Assembly (NCBI RefSeq): GCF_002159535.1
Contig: NZ_NFIU01000007.1
Span: 1 to 64,000 of the forward strand
DNA: 64,000 bases
Origin: Olsenella sp. An290
GTDB lineage: Bacteria; Actinomycetota; Coriobacteriia; Coriobacteriales; Atopobiaceae
Direction of reading: 5' to 3'
This document shows, piece after piece, positions 3,711 through 64,000 of the stretch. The stretch's first letter is position 1. Every line of letters begins with the position of its first letter. The notes beneath the pieces were generated by a model. That model was not told where the DNA came from. It was given only the letters and a program-made list of their open reading frames with translations, and made no database searches. The position numbers and the translations under genes were made by a program.

Positions 3711-5273
3711 CTAGCGTCTGTTCCCCGAGCCCCGCCCGCGGCCGCGAAGGCGGTCGGACGCGCTGGGCCCAAGGTCGATCCTCTGCCTGCCGCCGGCCGC
3801 GCCCCGGCCCCGGGCGCCCGAGGGGCCGCGCGAGGCGGCCCGCCCGGAGCGACGGCCCTCCGTGCGCGGGGCCTGCCGCCCGCCGGGCGCACGGGTGCCG
3901 CGGCCGGTGCCCCCTCCGCCGTCCACCACGGTGAGCCGCGCGCGGCCGCCCGAGGGGCGCTCCGAGCGCGGGGACGGCTCGCCCACGAAGGAGAGGCCCG
4001 CGCCGGCGCGCGACCCCTCCCGGGCGCCGCCCTCCACCTGCCAGGAGCCGCGGGCGCTGTCGTGGGCGGTCTCGGGCAGGCGCGAGTGGGCGGACACCGA
4101 AACGATCATGCCCGCGATCATGATGCTCGCGGTGATCGAGGTGCCGCCGTAGGAGATGAAGGGGATGGGCTTTCCCGAGAGCGGGAAGATGCCCAGGACG
4201 CCCGCCACGTTGAGCAGCGTCTGGACCACGATGAGCGAGGTGCAGCCCGCGGCGATGAGCCGGCCGGCGAGGTCGGGCGCGTGCCGGGCGATCCTGAGGC
4301 CCGCCCAGGCGAAGACGCCAAAGCCCACGAGCAGGCCGAGCGCGCCCACAAAGCCGCACTCCTCGCCGATCACGGCGTAGATGAAGTCGTTGTGCGCCAT
4401 GGGCAGGTAGGAGTACTTCTGGCGCGAGAAGCCCACGCCCACGCCCAGAAGCCCGCCCGACCCGAAGGCATAGAAGCCCTGGATGAGCTGGTAGCCGGTC
4501 TTGTAGGGGTCCTTCCAGGGGTCGAGCATCGTGAGGAGGCGCTGGCGCGAGTAGTCGTCCTTCAGGGAGAGGGCCACAAAGCCCACGAGGCCCAGGACGA
4601 GGAAGAACGCGAGGAAGCGCTTGGGGACGCCCGCGAGGTAGCCCATCACCACGAGGGTGAGGCCCAGGACCATCGTGGAGCCCTTGTCGGGCTGCGCCAC
4701 GATGAGCACGAGCGGGACGCCCACGCCCAGGGCCATGAGCATGAGGAAGTCGTGCCAGGTGATCGAGCCCTCCTCGAAGTAGCGCTGCGCCACGTTGGCG
4801 CCCGTGAGGACGATCGTGAGCTTGGCGAACTCCGAGGGCTGGAGCTGAAAGCCCGCGACGGTGATCCAGCGGTTGGCGCCGTAGGCGTCCCCGCCCGCAA
4901 AGGGGGTGAAGACGAGGGCGAGCAAGATCACGGTGAGGACCCAGATCGGGGTGAGCAGCGTCCGGCACCACGTGTGGTAGTCAAAGTGGACGATCACCCC
5001 CGCCGCGACAAGGCCGAGCAGGGCCATCATGGCCTGGCGCTTGAGGTAGTAGGCGGCGTCCCCGTTCTCGGCGAGCGCCGTCACCGAGGAGGACGAGTAG
5101 ACCATGAGCAGGCCAAAGCCCACGAGGATGGCCGTCACGGCGAGAAGGACGAGCCGGGGGCGCATGAAGCGCTCCGGCACGCCGAAGATCGTCCGCTCCT
5201 CGCGCCCGGCGCCCCTCGCCGAGCGCTCGCGGCGGCTGGGGCCGCGCCGCCCTGTCAGCCTGAGCGCGCCCAC
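3711..5273 (-). CDS. ftsW: SEDS peptidoglycan polymerase FtsW
   Basis: FtsW polymerises lipid II at the septum together with its partner transpeptidase, encoded here as ftsI. The protein (520 residues from a GTG at 5273) has about ten membrane segments and the SEDS hallmarks QPDKGSTMV, GFYAFGSGG, and the P-rich FPLSGKPIPFISYGG near residue 370. Unusually, about 110 residues follow the last membrane span; they are rich in Arg, Gly, Pro and Ser and predicted disordered. An internal ATG (5165, MRPRLVLL) is an alternative start that would remove an Arg-rich leader. The GTG begins three bases after the murD stop. Confidence 0.94.
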   Translation of the reverse strand: MGALRLTGRRGPSRRERSARGAGREERTIFGVPERFMRPRLVLLAVTAILVGFGLLMVYSSSSVTALAENGDAAYYLKRQAMMALLGLVAAGVIVHFDYHTWCRTLLTPIWVLTVILLALVFTPFAGGDAYGANRWITVAGFQLQPSEFAKLTIVLTGANVAQRYFEEGSITWHDFLMLMALGVGVPLVLIVAQPDKGSTMVLGLTLVVMGYLAGVPKRFLAFFLVLGLVGFVALSLKDDYSRQRLLTMLDPWKDPYKTGYQLIQGFYAFGSGGLLGVGVGFSRQKYSYLPMAHNDFIYAVIGEECGFVGALGLLVGFGVFAWAGLRIARHAPDLAGRLIAAGCTSLIVVQTLLNVAGVLGIFPLSGKPIPFISYGGTSITASIMIAGMIVSVSAHSRLPETAHDSARGSWQVEGGAREGSRAGAGLSFVGEPSPRSERPSGGRARLTVVDGGGGTGRGTRAPGGRQAPRTEGRRSGRAASRGPSGARGRGAAGGRQRIDLGPSASDRLRGRGRGSGNRR

Positions 5274-40290: not shown

Positions 40291-40380
40291 ATTTTCCTGC
40301 AAATATACCTGAATTGTGAACCCCCCGTGGAGCGTGGTCACGGAGGGTGGGGCGGGCTGCCGAGGATGCAGGTGGGCGGG

Positions 40381-40453
40381 CGCAATAACATGCAAATCTT
40401 GCCTCCAACCTGAAAAAACCGGCCTGAGGGCGCAAGATTTGCATGTTATTGCG
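40381..40453. repeat. Perfect 22-bp inverted repeat hairpin
   Basis: The 40193-40703 gap has no gene. At 40381-40402 and 40432-40453 lie exact complements (GCAATAACATGCAAATCTTG core), separated by 29 bases that continue the pairing in part (GCCTC/GAGG). The arms are AT-rich and contrast with the surrounding DNA. It lies between the promoter at 40262 and the element at 40510. Confidence 0.9.
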
Positions 40454-40509
40454 TCACGGCGCTCCGAGGCCCCGTGCGTCGGCGGAAACGGCCGCGCTGC
40501 CAGAAGCCC

Positions 40510-40625
40510 CGCCGAATGCGCGCCCTCCCGCGCGCGTCGGGCGATTTTGGCGCGCACTCGTCAATTGTTCTGTCCAACCGGACACGAATCTCGCCCACTG
40601 CGCGCAGGGCAGCGCGCACTCGGCG
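40510..40625. repeat. Intergenic hairpin element, GAGTGCGCGC family copy 1
   Basis: Outer arms CGCCGAATGCGCGC (40510-40523) and GCGCGCACTCGGCG (40612-40625) match with one exception. An inner GGCGCGCACTCG (40549-40560) faces CACTGCGCGC (40596-40605). The centre is TGTCC-aacc-GGACA (40571-40584). The same plan and core recur at 59109 and 63326. It lies after the stop of the SGNH-GNAT gene. Confidence 0.75.
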
Positions 40626-40703
40626 CGATTCCGCTCCCCCAGGCGCGACGCAACAGAACCGTCCCGGGCGCACCCCGCGCCCCACACCCAACGAGCCCCG
40701 CCG

Positions 40704-42512
40704 TCAGGACACGAACCACAGCTGGTCGGCAGGGCGCACCTCAAACCCCATCCGGCGCTCCAGGGCAAGCGACGCCCCGTTGTCGGGCCAGACCGCGGCC
40801 CACGGGGTCATCCCCTGCGCCAGCTGCGCGGAGACCTTGGCCGCGGTGAGCGCGGTCCCCCACCCCTCCCGGCGGTGCCCCTCGAAGACCTCGAGCATGC
40901 CCATCGAGCCGTCCGCGTGCTCCCCCACAAAGCCCACGATGCGCCCGTCCTCAAAGCCGCCGAGAAACGCCCCGCGCGCGAGCGCCGCCTCGAGCTCGCC
41001 GGGGGCCAGGTACTCCGGGTGGGAGTAGCGCTCGCGGACCACGCCCGCATAGGCCGGCGTGAGCGCGCGGATATCGAGCCCGGCGCGCGCCTTGGGGGCG
41101 CCGCCCCGCCACACGACGGCGTGACAGCCGCGAACGTGCCCGCCGGTCAGGCGCGCCACGTCGCGGGCCAGCGCGCGGTCGCCGCAGACGCAGGTCACGC
41201 CACCTGCGGGCCCAAAGCACGCGAGGGCCTCCCGGACGAGCCGCCTCTCGGTCCCCGCCACGATCCGCGAGCCGTCCGCAAGCTCCGCCACGACGGCGCC
41301 GCGCCGGGCGAGAAGAACCTCGCCGAGGCCGCGCCCCAGGCACTCCGCCAGCGGAAACGCCCGCTCGCCGAGACGGCGCGCCACCTTGAGCGCGCGGGCG
41401 CGGCGCTCGGGGGCGGGCTCGGCCGTGGCGTCCATCACGAAGGCGAGTCGCTCGGCCATGAGCTCCTGGCCCGCCGGCCCCGGGTGGCCGGAGCCGTCGG
41501 CGAGAAGCGTCGCGAGGTCGCCGTCCCCCAGGAGCGCCGCGCCGTTCACGAGGCGCATCTGAGGGTGGCGGGCCACCGCGTCACGGATGATGCCGTCGAT
41601 CGCCGCGGCGCAGCTCAGGGGGTGGGTGGGATAGACGTCCTCGGTGTGCGCGGGGCACGTGAGGACCCACGTGGGCACGTCGGGGAAGATCTCGGCGACC
41701 TCCGCGAGGTAGGCGCGGACCTCGCGCTCAACGCGCGAGGCCTGGCAGGGCTCGTAGCGGTAGTTCTCGCCAAACTCCACCACCACCGCGCCCGCGTCCG
41801 CGCGGCCCGCAAGGCCGGCGACCGTCCCCGGCTGAAAGACCTGCCCGCCGATGCCCTGGTTGAGCAGGTCGAGGTCGAGGTGGCGCGCGAGGCGCGCGGG
41901 CCAGCTGAGACCGGGGTCGCAGGCCACGAAGCCCTGTGCGATGGAGTCGCCGAGCACCACGAGCGCGCGGCGCTCAGGCACGGGCTCGAGGTAGGTGCCG
42001 TCCGCGACCACGTGCCGCACCGAGCAGGCCGTCAGGCAGGGCAGCCAGATGCGCACGCGATGGGGCTCCCCCATCCCGGGGAGCCGCAGCATGCCGGGCC
42101 CGGGCGCGGAGGCCGGGTCGTCCACGACCCACGTGACGAGGTTCTTCTCGTCAGGGAGAAGAACCTCGAGGTGGCGATCGTCGACGTCGGCCGAGAGGCC
42201 GTCGAGGGGCGGCCGCGGGCCGCCCGGGTGGCGCGCGACGTCGGCCAGGACCGCCTCGGCGCCCCGCGGCGTGGGCTCGAGCCTCACCTCGAGGCTCACG
42301 CGCGTGGCGTCGGTGTCAAACGCGAGGCACACGCCCGCGGACGAGGCCGCGAGCGAGCGGTAGAGCCCGGGGTGCCAGGCGCGCACGCTGCCCACCGCGC
42401 GCAGCTGCGCCGGGGTGAGTCGGGTCGGGCGCTGCCATCCCTCGCCCTCCGGCACGGTGCCCAGGGCCCCCTGCAGGAGGGGCGCGGCGTCGCGGACGAT
42501 CTCGGCCGGCAT
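40704..42512 (-). CDS. Fusion of SGNH/GDSL esterase and GNAT acetyltransferase domains
   Basis: The 602-residue protein has an N-terminal jelly-roll-like region (about 1-175), an SGNH hydrolase domain with VVLGDSIAQGF (catalytic Ser, near 187), GIGGQ, and a later DGSGHPGPAG block with Asp-His, and a C-terminal GNAT domain (about 460-602). Its acetyl-CoA loop is in MLEVFEGHRREGWGTALTAA. The first two parts resemble SGNH_hydro-type carbohydrate esterases; an attached acetyltransferase suggests adding and removing acyl groups on one substrate, which is inference. It follows the phosphatase by three bases. Confidence 0.82.
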   Translation of the reverse strand: MPAEIVRDAAPLLQGALGTVPEGEGWQRPTRLTPAQLRAVGSVRAWHPGLYRSLAASSAGVCLAFDTDATRVSLEVRLEPTPRGAEAVLADVARHPGGPRPPLDGLSADVDDRHLEVLLPDEKNLVTWVVDDPASAPGPGMLRLPGMGEPHRVRIWLPCLTACSVRHVVADGTYLEPVPERRALVVLGDSIAQGFVACDPGLSWPARLARHLDLDLLNQGIGGQVFQPGTVAGLAGRADAGAVVVEFGENYRYEPCQASRVEREVRAYLAEVAEIFPDVPTWVLTCPAHTEDVYPTHPLSCAAAIDGIIRDAVARHPQMRLVNGAALLGDGDLATLLADGSGHPGPAGQELMAERLAFVMDATAEPAPERRARALKVARRLGERAFPLAECLGRGLGEVLLARRGAVVAELADGSRIVAGTERRLVREALACFGPAGGVTCVCGDRALARDVARLTGGHVRGCHAVVWRGGAPKARAGLDIRALTPAYAGVVRERYSHPEYLAPGELEAALARGAFLGGFEDGRIVGFVGEHADGSMGMLEVFEGHRREGWGTALTAAKVSAQLAQGMTPWAAVWPDNGASLALERRMGFEVRPADQLWFVS

Positions 42513-58546: not shown

Positions 58547-58927
58547 CTAGAGCTCGGCCTTCCAGAGGCCGTGAAGGTTGCAGTAGGCGTAGACGGTGCC
58601 GCCCTCGCAGCAGCAGGCGCCGAAGGTCGCCCTGGGCTCCTCGCCCGGCTTCAGGTGCTTGAGGCAGAGCTTGCCGTCGGTGACCAGGGCAACCCACTCG
58701 ATGAAGTGCTCCTCGGTCATGGGGTGGGCGACCTCGCCCACGGTCACGACGAGGTGGTTGCCGTCCTTCTCGGCCACCGGGACGTGCTTTTCCGTCGCGG
58801 CGTCGGTGGAGCCTGCCACGAGCAGCTCCATGGGCTCGCCGCAGCAGCTCGGGGTGACGCCGCCGTCCTTGACGACGGCGACGATGTTGCCGCAGTGATT
58901 GCAGCGGTAGAACTTGACCTCGGCCAT
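58547..58927 (-). CDS. dfx: Desulfoferrodoxin (superoxide reductase)
   Basis: Desulfoferrodoxin reduces superoxide to peroxide without making oxygen, a defence used by anaerobes. The 126 residues show an N-terminal rubredoxin-like iron site FYRCNHCGNIV...SCCGEPMELL (four Cys) and the superoxide reductase core with EKHVPV, VGEVAHPMTEEHFIEW (His ligands) and YCNLHGLWK (Cys and His). The ATG at 58927 follows GAGAGGAC. It supports a strict-anaerobe lifestyle. Confidence 0.95.
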   Translation of the reverse strand: MAEVKFYRCNHCGNIVAVVKDGGVTPSCCGEPMELLVAGSTDAATEKHVPVAEKDGNHLVVTVGEVAHPMTEEHFIEWVALVTDGKLCLKHLKPGEEPRATFGACCCEGGTVYAYCNLHGLWKAEL

Positions 58928-59108
58928 GGCTGGGTCCTCTCTCAAGGGGTCGGGCGCCCTCTGCGCCCGTTGCCTCTCTCATACCCGTATGCCCTCGCTC
59001 CTAAGCCGAGATGCCGGCCCCTCGGCCAGACCCCCAGAATCATCGAGCTCGCGGCCCAGGGGGCGGGCCGGGGACGGGGCTCCCCGGTCGGGTCGAGAGG
59101 GCACGTCC

Positions 59109-59236
59109 GCCACGAATCCCGCCGAGTGCGCGCTGGAAAGCTCGCCTCGGCGCGCATTCGTCGTTTTTCTCGTCCGGGCGGACAGAAAACCCGCCGAGTG
59201 TACGCTGGCGAGCGCGCACTCGGCGGGATTCGTGGC
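59109..59236. repeat. Intergenic hairpin element, GAGTGCGCGC family copy 2, 26-bp perfect arms
   Basis: The 58928-59289 gap has no gene. Positions 59109-59134 (CACGAATCCCGCCGAGTGCG plus flanks) and 59211-59236 are exact inverted copies. Inside are a weaker CTCGCC/GGCGAG pair and the core GTCCG-gg-CGGAC (59172-59183) flanked by T5 and A4. Same plan as 40510 and 63326. It lies after dnaE and before dfx. Confidence 0.9.
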
Positions 59237-59289
59237 GACTGCAGAGCAGGCGGCAACTGCAGGGCAGGCAGCGGCAGCGCAGGCGGGCG

Positions 59290-62200
59290 CTATGCCACCT
59301 GGACGTGGCCCTGGCGGCCGACAAGGTCGATCATCTCGGCGAGAAGGACCATGTTGCGGGCGTCGATCCTGGTGGGGAGCTCCATGCGCATGACGTCGCC
59401 CGTGGACGACTCCACGCGCAGCTCGACGTGGTCGAGGCCGGGGTAGCGCCCGAGGATCTGCCCCATGCTGTCCATGTAGGGGCGCGTGAGCAGCCCCGCT
59501 GGGATGTTGACCTCGAGCACCTTGGGCCGGTTGGCGCGGTCGTCCAGGACAAGCGGCTCGACCGCCATGCAGATGACCTGGTTGCCGCGGTCGCCGCGCT
59601 CGAGCTTGCCCTCCACCTTCACGAAGACGTCGCCCTGGCTCTCGCCCGTCTCCTCGTCGACCTCGCCGGCGAGCGCCGCCGCGCACTTCTTGTAGAGCTT
59701 GGGGAAGACCACGAGCGTGACCTCGCCCTCCATGTCCTCGAGGGTGACGATGGCCATGGGGTCACCGTTCTTGGTGGTCTTCTTCTGCACGGCCGTGACC
59801 ATGCCCGCAAGGCGGATGACCTTGCCCTCGGGCACCTTGAAGCGCTCGTGGACGGCGCCGGAGGGGTCGGTGACCTCCTCGGCCACCTCGATGTCGGCGA
59901 TCGTGTAGTCGCGGTTCTTGGTGAGCGCGTACTCGTAGGGGCGCAGCGGGTGGTCGGAGACGTAGAGGCCGAGCACCTCGTGCTCTCGGGCCAGCTTGAC
60001 CGAGCGGTCCCACTCCACCCCGTCGGGCTCGGGCACGGTGTTCTCGAAGCCGGAGCCCTCCACGTCGCCGAAGAGGTCGAACATGGAGAACTGCCCGGCG
60101 GCGCGCACCTTCTGGCGCTTGGCCGCGGCGTCGATGATGTTCTCGGGGTTGGTCTTGTCGACGAAGCGCATGAGCTGCATGCGGGTGTAGCCGGTGGAGT
60201 CGAAGGCGCCCGAGCAGATGAGCGCCTCGACCACGCGGCGGTTGGCCTGGCCGGTGTCCATGCGGTCCACGAAGTCGTGGAGGCTCTTGAAGGGGCCGTT
60301 CTTCTCGCGCTCCGCCATGATGGCCTCGCCCACGCCCTCGCCCACGCCGCGGATGCCGGCAAAGCCAAAGCGCACGCCCTCGGAGGTGGCGGTGAAGTCG
60401 CGGCCGGACTCGTTGATGTCGGGCGGCAGGATGGCCACGCCCTCGTGGCGGTAGGCCGTGACGTAGTGGACGATCTTGTCGGTCTTGCCCATGTAGGACG
60501 TGAGGACCGAGGCCATGTACTCGCGCGGGTAGTGGGCCTTGAGCCAGGCCGTCTGCATGACGAGGATGGCGTATCCCGCCGAGTGGCTCTTGTTGAACGC
60601 GTAGGACGCGAACTCCAGGACGTCGTCCCAGATGCGCTGCGCGATCTCCTTCTTGTAGCCGTTGGTGACGGCGCCGTTCATCCAGTGGTCGTAGGTGGTC
60701 TCGTCCTTGCCGTCGTCCCAGTGGAAGACCGTAGAGGTGAGGAGCTTGATCTTCTTCTTGGCCACGGGCTTTCGGATGCGGGAGTCACTCTCGCCGGCCG
60801 AGAACCCCGACATCTTCATCGAGATCTTCATGACCTGCTCCTGGTAGACCATCGTGCCGTAGGTCTCGCCCAGGATGTCGTCCAGGCGCGGGTCGTAGGA
60901 GACGGCCTCCTCGCGGCCGTTCATGCGGTTGATGTAGCTCGTGACCATGCCGGCGCCCAGAGGGCCCGGGCGGTAGAGGGCGATAAGTGCCACCACCTGC
61001 TTGTACTCGGTGGGGCGCATGTTCTTGATCGTGGACGTCATGCCCGCGGACTCGATCTGGAAGACGCCGGCGGTGCGGCCCTCGCGCATGAGCTTGTAGA
61101 TCTCCGGGTCGTCGAAGGGGATCTCGTCCACGTTGATGTCGATCCCGTAGTTGGCCTTGATGTTGGCCTTGGCCTTGGAGATGACGGTCAGGGTGCGAAG
61201 CCCCAGGAAGTCCATCTTGAGCAGGCCCATGTCCGCGACCGAGTGCCCCTCGTACTGGGTGATCTCGACGCCGCCCTTGGTGTCGACCTTGGTGGGCACG
61301 TGGTCGTTGACCGGCGTGGGCGCGATGAGGACGGCGCAGGCGTGGACGCCCTCGCCTCGGTGCAGGCCCTCGATGGAAAGGGCCGCGTCGATGATGCGGC
61401 GGGAGTCCGGGTCGTTCTTGTAGGCGTCCTCGAAGTCGGGCGAGTACTGGTCGGAGTGCTTCTCGTTCTTGTGCAGGGCGCTGTCAAGCGTGAGCTTGGG
61501 GTCGTTGTTGAGCATCTTGGAGAGCTTCTGGCCCTGCCAGACGGGAAAGCCCAGCACGCGCGCGGCGTCGTTGATGGCCTGCTTGGCCTTGATCGTGGAG
61601 TAGGTGATGACGTGGCAGACGCGCTCGGGGCCGTAGAGCTGGCGGACGTGCTCCACGACCTCGAGGCGGCGCTCGTCGTCGAAGTCCATGTCGATATCCG
61701 GCATCTCGGAGCGCTGCGGGGAGAGGAAGCGCTCGAACATGAGGCCGTTGTCGAGCGGGTCGAAGGTGGTGATGTCCATCGCGTAGGCCACGATGGCGCC
61801 GGCGGCCGACCCTCGGCCGGGCCCCACGCCGATGCCGTTTCTCTTGGCCCAGCGCACGTACTCCTGGACGATGAGGAAGTAGTCGGCGAAGCCCTTCTCG
61901 CAGATGACCTTGTACTCGTACTCGAAGCGCTCGCGGACGTTCTCGCCGCCCACGGTGAGCTCGCGCCAGTTCTCGCCGTAGCGGCGCGCGAGGCCCGTCT
62001 CGCACTCCTTGCGGAAGCGCTCCTCGGAGGTCTCGCCGGGGTCGAGGTCCGGGAACTTGGGCAGGTACATGTGGGTCCAGTCGAGCTCGTAGCGGCACTT
62101 CTCGGCCACCTCGAGCGTGTTCTCGATGACCTCGGGCGCCCACGAGAAGAGCTGGCGCATCTCCTCCTCGCTCTTGATGTAGAACTCGGTGCCCGTCATG

Positions 62201-63120
62201 CGCTTGCGGTTCTCGTCGTCGATCTTCGAGGCGGTGCCGATGCAGCTGAGCACGTCCTGGGTGGGGGCGTCCTCGCGCGTGAGGTAGTGGTTGTCGTTGG
62301 TGGCGATGACCTTGATGCCGAGCTCGGCTCCCAGGCGCACGATCTGCTCGGAGAGGGTGCGGTCGGTGAAGCCGCCCCACGCGGGGTCCGCCAGGCCATG
62401 GTCCTGGACCTCGAGGTAGAAGTCCTCGCCAAAGATCTCCTGGAAGGTGCGCGCCCAGCGGCGCGCCTCGTCCGGGCGGCCCTCGAAGTAGCTGCGCGGG
62501 ATGATGCCCGAAACGCACGCGGAGGTGCAGATGATGCCCTCGTGGTAGCGACGCAGCATGTCAAGGGTGGTGCGCGGGTAGTAGTAGAACATGTCGCCGG
62601 AGGCCGCCTCGCTCATCATCTTCATGAGGTTGACGTAGCCGGTCTCGTTCTTGGCCAGCAAGATCAGGTGGTAGCGGTGCTGGCGCGTGCCCTTCTCGAT
62701 GCAGTCGTCCGTGATGAAGTAGGCCTCGCAGCCAAAGATCGGCTGGATGAGCAGGGAGGGGCGGTTGGCGCGAACGGCCTCGAGGTCATGGGTCCTCTCC
62801 CAGATGGCGACGTCGGAGGCCCACTGGGCGTGGACGCGGTCGTGCGGGCGGGCGTCCTCGGCGTCGGGCTCCGGCTCCTCGAGCTCCCAGCCCTTCTGAA
62901 AGCACTCGAGGTCGTGCCTCCACTGGTGCATGTCCTTCTGGCCGTCGTTGTACTTGCGGCACTCCATGTCGAAGTCCGGGATGCCGAACATGTAGCCGTG
63001 GTCCGTGAGGGCCAGCGCCGGCATCTCAAGGTCGACGGCGCGCTTCACCATGTCGGAGATGCGCGTGGCCCCGTCGAGGATCGAGAAGTCCGAGTGGTTG
63101 TGCAGGTGAACGAATGCCAT
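59290..63120 (-). CDS. dnaE: DNA polymerase III alpha subunit DnaE
   Basis: The replicative polymerase subunit is 1276 residues. It has the PHP domain from FVHLHNHSDFSILDG (HxH), the C-family catalytic region with GVGPGRGSAAGAIVAY and SEMPDIDMDFDDERR (Asp pair), GMVYQEQVMKISMKMSGFS, the helix-hairpin-helix, and an OB domain (LAGMVTAVQKKTTKNGDPM). A roughly 60-residue polar insertion (about 50-110) splits the PHP domain before the PIFGCEAYF segment. TAGACT at 63173-63178 may be its -10. GGAGA is the ribosome site. Confidence 0.97.
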   Translation of the reverse strand: MAFVHLHNHSDFSILDGATRISDMVKRAVDLEMPALALTDHGYMFGIPDFDMECRKYNDGQKDMHQWRHDLECFQKGWELEEPEPDAEDARPHDRVHAQWASDVAIWERTHDLEAVRANRPSLLIQPIFGCEAYFITDDCIEKGTRQHRYHLILLAKNETGYVNLMKMMSEAASGDMFYYYPRTTLDMLRRYHEGIICTSACVSGIIPRSYFEGRPDEARRWARTFQEIFGEDFYLEVQDHGLADPAWGGFTDRTLSEQIVRLGAELGIKVIATNDNHYLTREDAPTQDVLSCIGTASKIDDENRKRMTGTEFYIKSEEEMRQLFSWAPEVIENTLEVAEKCRYELDWTHMYLPKFPDLDPGETSEERFRKECETGLARRYGENWRELTVGGENVRERFEYEYKVICEKGFADYFLIVQEYVRWAKRNGIGVGPGRGSAAGAIVAYAMDITTFDPLDNGLMFERFLSPQRSEMPDIDMDFDDERRLEVVEHVRQLYGPERVCHVITYSTIKAKQAINDAARVLGFPVWQGQKLSKMLNNDPKLTLDSALHKNEKHSDQYSPDFEDAYKNDPDSRRIIDAALSIEGLHRGEGVHACAVLIAPTPVNDHVPTKVDTKGGVEITQYEGHSVADMGLLKMDFLGLRTLTVISKAKANIKANYGIDINVDEIPFDDPEIYKLMREGRTAGVFQIESAGMTSTIKNMRPTEYKQVVALIALYRPGPLGAGMVTSYINRMNGREEAVSYDPRLDDILGETYGTMVYQEQVMKISMKMSGFSAGESDSRIRKPVAKKKIKLLTSTVFHWDDGKDETTYDHWMNGAVTNGYKKEIAQRIWDDVLEFASYAFNKSHSAGYAILVMQTAWLKAHYPREYMASVLTSYMGKTDKIVHYVTAYRHEGVAILPPDINESGRDFTATSEGVRFGFAGIRGVGEGVGEAIMAEREKNGPFKSLHDFVDRMDTGQANRRVVEALICSGAFDSTGYTRMQLMRFVDKTNPENIIDAAAKRQKVRAAGQFSMFDLFGDVEGSGFENTVPEPDGVEWDRSVKLAREHEVLGLYVSDHPLRPYEYALTKNRDYTIADIEVAEEVTDPSGAVHERFKVPEGKVIRLAGMVTAVQKKTTKNGDPMAIVTLEDMEGEVTLVVFPKLYKKCAAALAGEVDEETGESQGDVFVKVEGKLERGDRGNQVICMAVEPLVLDDRANRPKVLEVNIPAGLLTRPYMDSMGQILGRYPGLDHVELRVESSTGDVMRMELPTRIDARNMVLLAEMIDLVGRQGHVQVA

Positions 63121-63325
63121 GGGAAGAATCTCCGTAGGTCGGCGTCAGCTGGGCGTCTGTTTCATGGGACCTAGTCTAGCCGTTTGCCCGGACACAGGAC
63201 GGCGGGGGCCTGCTCGCCCGACCTGCGGACCTCCGCGTTTGCGCAGGTGGCAACCACAGGAATTCTTCACGACGGCCGGGGCGGCGGGTGCCGGGGGTGC
63301 GGGTGCCGGGGGACACAAATGCTGC

Positions 63326-63426
63326 CGGGTGCGCGCTCGGCGGCGCGCACCCGACGTTTCCCCTGTCCGGACGGACACGAAGGGGCCCGAGTGCGCGCCC
63401 GCGGGCGAGAAGGACCGCGCACTCGG
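63326..63426. repeat. Intergenic hairpin element, GAGTGCGCGC family copy 3
   Basis: The 63121-63502 gap has no gene. Two perfect 11-bp hairpins lie side by side: CGGGTGCGCGC (63326-63336) / GCGCGCACCCG (63343-63353), and CCGAGTGCGCG (63387-63397) / CGCGCACTCGG (63416-63426). Between them is TGTCCG-ga-CGGACA (63364-63377). The loop of the second hairpin holds GGGCGAGAAGGAC. Same plan as 40510 and 59109. Confidence 0.85.
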
Positions 63427-63502
63427 CGCGCTTCCTGGCAAGACGGACGCACGGGCATCGGAGAACGGGCGTCAAGGAGACGGGATGCCGGGGCAGGCCC
63501 GC

Positions 63503-64000
63503 TCAGGCCCCCTCGCCAAACTGGTAGCGGGCCACGAGGGGCTCGCCGGGCGCGTCCGGGTCCTCTCGCTCCACGCAGACGAAGGCGCACGTCACGCGCT
63601 CGAACCCCTCGGCAAGGAGAACCCCCGCGTAGAACTCGGCCTGCATCGCGTGACGCTCGCGGACCTCCTCGGGCGCGAGGCCGGCGTCGCCCGTCTTGTA
63701 GTCCACCACGAGCGCGCGGCGGCCCGCCTCGTCAGTGCAGAGGAGGTCCATCGCCCCCTCGAGGTAGTCCCCGTACGGCGACCCCTCCCTCGGCTGGAAG
63801 AACGGCACCTCGGCACGGGCGCGAGGCCAGGAGAGCGCCTCGGCCCGGACCGCCGAGCCCTCCCAGCGCGCGAGCGCCGCGCGCAGGCGCGCCTCGGCGC
63901 GCGGGGAGAGGTTCCAGCGTGCGACCTGGGCCGACACGCGTGCCTCGTCGACCGTGCGGCCGCTCTCCACCATGGCCTGCGCGAGCTCGTGGAAGGCCGA
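63503..64000 (-). CDS. addA: AddA-type helicase-nuclease, C-terminal nuclease domain (fragment)
   Basis: The frame is open to the right edge (upstream codons read AFHELAQAM), so this is the C-terminal 165 residues of a larger protein. AFHELAQAM resembles the first His-containing motif, and LEGAMDLLCTDEAGRRALVVDYKTGDAG is the RecB/AddA-type PD-(D/E)XK site (Asp, Asp, Lys). A UvrD-family helicase should lie outside the window. It would process double-strand breaks at Chi-like sites. The addA/addB/recB choice is not settled from this fragment. Confidence 0.65.
   Translation of the reverse strand, partial: SAFHELAQAMVESGRTVDEARVSAQVARWNLSPRAEARLRAALARWEGSAVRAEALSWPRARAEVPFFQPREGSPYGDYLEGAMDLLCTDEAGRRALVVDYKTGDAGLAPEEVRERHAMQAEFYAGVLLAEGFERVTCAFVCVEREDPDAPGEPLVARYQFGEGA

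Follow-up and report, generated by a model that had tools for sequence, protein, structure and literature searches.

The three hairpin elements found between genes in the window, the 64 kb stretch of DNA that was analysed, belong to a REP-dimer-like family, resembling BIMEs and BOX elements, that is found in Thermophilibacter and in a few closely related Atopobiaceae. In our estimate (probability about 0.6) this family is passed on vertically, provides a structured two-way 3' end and only rarely gives rise to new copies. The host of the window is itself a Thermophilibacter (Atopobiaceae, Coriobacteriia), a genus of gut bacteria. All three window copies share one layout of hairpin, palindromic core GTCCGNNCGGAC (GTCC-N4-GGAC) and hairpin. 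The elements listed here were located with the inverted-repeat map, the core pattern and the covariance model, and in the case of copy 2 also with the fold. Two neighbouring genes are included, with putative names.

40498..40640, no strand assigned: element copy 1
40513-40524 / 40549-40560: copy 1, arms of hairpin 1
40571-40584: copy 1, core TGTCCAACCGGACA
40586-40605 / 40612-40631: copy 1, arms of hairpin 2
58547..58945, minus strand: gene that we take to be desulfoferrodoxin-like, downstream of dnaE, with copy 2 between the two
59108..59237, no strand assigned: element copy 2, the focal copy
59108-59133 / 59212-59237: copy 2, outer inverted repeat, 26 bp and perfect
59120-59133 / 59150-59163: copy 2, arms of hairpin 1
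59171-59184: copy 2, core CGTCCGGGCGGACA
59187-59206 / 59211-59230: copy 2, arms of hairpin 2
59290..63120, minus strand: presumably dnaE (DNA polymerase III alpha), with an element copy on each side; used as the orthology anchor
63311..63443, no strand assigned: element copy 3
63326-63336 / 63343-63353: copy 3, arms of hairpin 1
63364-63377: copy 3, core TGTCCGGACGGACA
63387-63398 / 63415-63426: copy 3, arms of hairpin 2
63406: word CGAGAAGGAC, inside the second loop of copy 3

The sequence-only reading had placed hairpin copies at 40510, 59109 and 63326, and direct reading and inverted-repeat mapping confirm both the positions and the order of hairpin, core and hairpin. The 26 bp perfect arms given for the 59109 copy are likewise present (59108-59133 with 59212-59237), its outer arms appearing in the inverted-repeat mapping as 34 nt at 91%. 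Of the shared features the layout carries the signal; the short word GAGTGCGCGC alone is not above chance in the window. An uptake-sequence role for this arm was rejected: every exact CCGAGTGCGCGC of the window belongs to one of the elements, and the word shows no excess over shuffles. In DNA uptake sequence pairs a single arm is strongly over-represented genome-wide, also within genes, and the arm word of the element fails this on its window count against shuffles. Six strand-wise matches to TGTCCN3CGGACA (no more than one mismatch) are present in the window, where 1.4 are expected. All six are inside the three elements, and none of 100 shuffles reached this number. The RNA folding z-scores of the window copies are -9.8, -4.5 and -2.3, more stable than shuffles. 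No Rfam match over the gathering threshold was found anywhere in the window.

The full unit is approximately 130–143 bp and runs from a foot (GCCA/GACCA-AGAATCCCG) through a hairpin, the TTCTTGTCCG-NN-CGGACAAGAA core and a second hairpin to CGGGATTCTTGGC. The feet are arranged as terminal inverted repeats (CCAAGAATCCCG ... CGGGATTCTTGG), the stems have about 19–20 pairs and the loops about 4–28 nt. The element is almost its own reverse complement and was therefore scored on both strands. Its most conserved part is the core, a 12 bp palindrome with a free centre, which would suit a protein-binding or chromosome-organising site with GTCCGNNCGGAC as operator for a protein that binds DNA as a dimer, and with hairpins that are extruded or act as spacer DNA. 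This is highly improbable, since the models used to collect the elements were biased towards the core, the analysis turned up no candidate protein, and placement at 3' ends is unnecessary for such a role.

With copy 2 as the sole blastn query, about 18 further dispersed places were found in the 2.15 Mb genome. A covariance model built from 18 own-genome copies (R1), run on both strands, raised this to approximately 23 units at 20 places, so that a model-based genome search does give copies beyond the three of the window. At several sites paired units lie side by side, for example at C38:54037 and 54232 and at C39:94476 and 94598. In the family search, R1 also caught elements of the same layout with other stems, and a second model (R2) was built from a mix of stem types. 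With R2, 24 of 398 Coriobacteriia genomes are positive, all from one family: 20 are Thermophilibacter, one from another genus (G016) is clear and three more from two genera are weak. None was found outside the Atopobiaceae among these 398 genomes. The core pattern by itself is present in 10 of 31 Thermophilibacter genomes, with zero matches for the reversed control. A phage, plasmid or viral origin was rejected, there being no match to the element in those collections. The sequence-only reading had seen here an undescribed extragenic repeat family. This is supported by the lack of an Rfam match and by the limited full-text literature, in which no paper naming or describing the family was found.

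The core and feet are constant, and the stem types (GAGTGCGCGC, GCGGCGCATGC, GAGTTACGCGCGC) vary by lineage:

Subfamily A, stem CGAGTGCGCGC: own genome, G092, G122, G130, G131
Subfamily B, stem GCGGCGCATGC: G055, G123, G127, G131
Subfamily C, stem GAGTTACGCGCGC: G036, G118, G132

A single genome-wide stem type per species was rejected on the evidence of G131, which has both the GAGTGCGCGC and the GCGGCGCATGC type. In the mixed-subfamily alignment 29 of 44 pairs have changed on both sides, and covarying cells number 112, where shuffles give 52.8 (sd 5.6) and sliding gives no more than 33. The slid control is the safer one because relatedness inflates comparisons with shuffles. Within subfamily A alone the signal is weaker, as is expected for related copies. 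That the stems change on both sides suggests selection for pairing rather than for sequence. Covariation by itself does not separate RNA folding from the upkeep of a DNA palindrome.

The sequence-only reading put every window copy downstream of the 3' end of a gene, and this is the case. Copy 1 is 63 bp behind the stop codon of the minus-strand gene 40704-42512, copy 2 about 50 bp behind the 3' end of dnaE, and copy 3 is 59 bp behind the 3' end of the gene at 63503. All three are also 160–310 bp upstream of the start of the next gene. For 83 copies from 13 genomes, neighbouring genes were predicted heuristically, using a codon model that had been trained on the window. Among the 65 copies with both neighbours, 31 lie between convergent genes, 29 between tandem and 5 between divergent genes. 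The excess of convergent over divergent has a binomial p of 1e-5, equal numbers being expected in a circular genome. Convergent copies have a median distance of 23 bp to the nearer stop codon. For tandem copies the median distance from the upstream stop is 37 bp, and that to the following start codon is 137 bp (p = 0.001). The relation to gene ends thus extends beyond the window, and placement at 3' ends is the pattern reported for REPs. A nuclease or transposase gene associated with the repeat was also considered and rejected. Four own-genome copies do follow related neighbours, but by eye these resemble the C-terminal parts of surface proteins of the LPXTG type, large genes that have their 3' end there.

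An intrinsic terminator is a GC-rich hairpin followed by a U tract at the end of a transcript. The hairpins and position of the element would suit this, but the T stretches after its stems are weak (ATTCTTGT), which counts against a terminator reading. In the terminator scan only one orientation of copy 2 passes. Two further points weigh against such a reading: REP families elsewhere share the 3'-end bias and are not proven terminators, and the bias can come from tolerance of insertions. Position and hairpins would also fit purely local bidirectional terminators that are alike by convergence and were never mobile. It is very unlikely that this is all they are, since the core GTCCGNNCGGAC and the feet are common to unrelated genes, stems are alike at unrelated loci of one genome, and the dispersal pair described below largely refutes it. 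What remains probable, from place and pairing, is that the element gives mRNAs a structured 3' end or terminates transcription in both directions.

Sites shared between species give an indication of age. The element is found between the same two genes 3' of dnaE in the own genome (G000), in Candidatus Olsenella pullistercoris (G122) and in G131. The number of hairpins at this site is two in the first two and six in G131. In G130 a chain of elements runs from behind dnaE to the end of the contig, and chains are also present in T. mediterraneus. The place of copy 2 is occupied in two to three other species. The same gene pair is without an element in at least nine relatives, and because the site is empty in most relatives the element is not essential behind dnaE. 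At the place of copy 3, upstream of dnaE, T. mediterraneus (G092, Marseille-P3256T) has a copy at the same spot. In the dnaE tree the four genomes that have a copy beside dnaE do not fall together, so losses or repeated gains took place. Comparison of the neighbouring proteins gave at least 12 groups of sites common to two to four species, so the family must be old, with most copies handed down at their sites. At some of these (S2) the stem types differ between species and the loop is the same. Mean identity is 0.74 at shared sites, 0.68 within genomes and 0.65 between other copies, and on the 5' side of dnaE and at S5 and S6 the cross-species identity is no higher than background. Full homogenisation within genomes is not supported, orthologous copies being on average more alike than copies from the same genome. 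The copies are mostly old and vertically inherited, and this is not a freshly moving family.

The spacer upstream of dnaE is also occupied, depending on the species, by families of tandem palindromic repeats that are unrelated to one another (L182-L205), for example GGAAACGTCGCC..GCGACG in G087, G069 and G103, GCGAATCTCTAAGCGCC in G124 and CGTCGG..CCGACG in G133 and G109. The spot looks as if it collects whichever repeat a genome carries. In G055 (L063/L088) and G131 (L259) a near-identical pair of elements (S3/S4) brackets a gene that has no Pfam match. The same place in G132 (L266) has one element and no such gene, as after recombination between copies. Another family of hairpins, GCAATAACATGCAAATC ... 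GATTTGCATGTTATTGC around a CCAACCTGAAAAAAC loop, adjoins the element at three loci: in the window at 40380-40457, at about 1400-1480 of L007 and at the ends of L003. Positions 1-300 of L003 (G000:C6) are at a contig start, with the element nested in a very long inverted repeat whose nearly perfect arms measure about 100 bp each, probably an assembly break.

Among the closest pairs of copies from the same genome is one in T. mediterraneus (G092 C6:234013 and C1:33321) that is 93% identical over 143 bp, with visible ends and unrelated flanks. This shows that the unit can also disperse, on the evidence of one event. Dispersal confined to the unit, together with its length and ends, is consistent with a MITE, a non-autonomous element of 130–143 bp that ends in inverted repeats (GACCAAGAATCCCG ... 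CGGGATTCTTGGTC), is mobilised in trans by a putative DDE-type transposase and has no role in the host. The terminal repeats expected of a MITE are provided by the outer 26 bp repeat of copy 2 and by the feet. Against this, no target-site duplication was found by eye in the one clear pair, read from its two occupied sites, and phage, plasmid and viral matches are absent. Similarity between copies of the same genome is mostly only about 67%, yet orthologous copies are retained, and changes on both sides maintain the palindromes. A MITE origin is therefore unlikely.

The sequence-only reading had compared the elements with REP/BIME repeats moved by RAYT transposases. The resemblance in form and position stands; the link to RAYT does not. 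No RAYT gene was seen in the window, as had been noted, and two Y1 transposase genes are present elsewhere in the genome (L030, L031). In the 1.5 kb around each of these, and around each of the 31 Y1 loci examined in Thermophilibacter, no element was found, and a link to RAYT was rejected on this lack of adjacency. A single core-like match, at L231, is by eye coding sequence of an ABC transporter gene. The two own Y1 genes are flanked by GGGGACAG-type terminal repeats, which fit the GGGGWSAS terminal repeats of described TIRYT genes (PMC3733652). Like those, the repeats in this genome have a constant word and variable hairpins; their sequence is unrelated to the element, and they flank a Y1 transposase, which the element does not. 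RAYT/TIRYT-like genes with GGGGACAG-type flanks are also seen at other Y1 loci, and repeats of this type occur behind dnaE in G125, G087 and G103.

In form, the elements match REP dimers and BIMEs (PMC3733652, PMC8266576) as extragenic palindromes in pairs of opposite orientation, which form chains, have species-specific stem types and lie near the 3' ends of convergent and tandem genes. They differ in their foot (GTCC/GGAC), which is palindromic across the dimer joint, in having a two-hairpin unit of about 130 bp with no adjoining RAYT, and in stems of about 19–20 pairs against 5–13 bp in GTAG REPs and 8–9 bp in CGTC REPs. The inverted dimers and intergenic placement near 3' ends of the GTAG super-family are all found here. 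In that super-family an unpaired GTAG precedes the palindrome and the RAYT gene is flanked by the repeat, whereas GTAG is present in 14 of 77 elements and CTAC in 12 of 77, never as a constant foot, and none of the 31 Y1 loci is so flanked. CGTC REPs have CGTC (or TGTC) at one end, an 8–9 bp stem, a 4–5 nt loop and a CCA tail; in the element the loops and stems are longer and tag and tail are in the opposite order. A strict REP/BIME system, in which single-strand hairpins are cut and moved by RAYT (TnpA-REP, Y1) with GTCC/GGAC as a GTAG-like tag in tail-to-tail dimers, would account for the hairpin dimers, the tag-like conserved foot, the 3'-end bias, the tandem chains and the presence of Y1 genes in 28 of 31 Thermophilibacter genomes. 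It is nonetheless quite unlikely: Y1 genes are equally common in genomes without the element, their flanking repeats are mostly of the GGGGACAG type, as in TIRYT, and the tag is neither GTAG nor CGTC.

The BOX elements of Streptococcus pneumoniae (PMC3049150) have in common with this family constant ends, a variable number of inner modules and stem-loops, and are old, slow-moving and confined to a species group. The present element is quasi-symmetric, GC-rich and limited to Atopobiaceae in the class search; boxA, boxB and boxC were not recognised in it, and it is set apart from BOX by description. In form and place the family behaves as REP dimers do, and in its modular growth as BOX elements do, but it has neither the tag of the REP families nor an adjoining RAYT. 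It falls outside the GTAG and CGTC classes and is apparently a REP-dimer/BOX-like family that has gone undescribed.

The word CGAGAAGRAC is present 36 times in the window, 18 times on each strand (for example at 5141, 19396, 28302, 46549, 48107 and 63406), where composition alone predicts about 0.2. Fifteen of the 36 are intergenic, part of the coding copies read Glu-Lys-Asn/Asp in frame, and single-mismatch variants are few except at position 9. There are about 1060 copies in this genome against 38 of the reversed control. Of ten Thermophilibacter genomes searched, nine have 785–1451 copies and the divergent G096 has 255; most other Atopobiaceae genera have 20–250. A gene of the ComEC family was also found. 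In density, presence on both strands and sharpness the word resembles a DNA uptake sequence, and it is possibly more important than the element itself. A link between the two was rejected, with 1.8 copies per kb in elements (5 occurrences) against 1.1 in other intergenic DNA and no clear enrichment.

In the preferred reading, the REP-dimer-like family, an element would be inherited vertically for long times once at a site, and its inner modules can multiply in tandem, as in the species with a chain of six hairpins 3' of dnaE. At the end of an mRNA both hairpins would form whichever strand is transcribed, so that the near-symmetric element can act for either member of a convergent gene pair, probably by terminating transcription in both directions, by blocking exonucleases at the 3' end, or both. 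Selection for pairing would keep the hairpins while the stems change, and new copies would arise rarely, through a putative enzyme. It is possible, though doubtful, that the core is recognised by a trans-acting factor other than RAYT, one that maintains, copies or makes use of the hairpins, with site, core and feet fixed and the stems replaced in each lineage under the pairing constraint.

REP-like repeats are generally considered dependent on RAYT enzymes, and for the CGTC class no such dependence is known. The present family would be an orphan REP-like class in Actinomycetota with a different joint, datable through shared sites in about 20 species. It lets one test whether palindromes at gene ends are kept for their fold, in termination or mRNA stability, or for their own copying.
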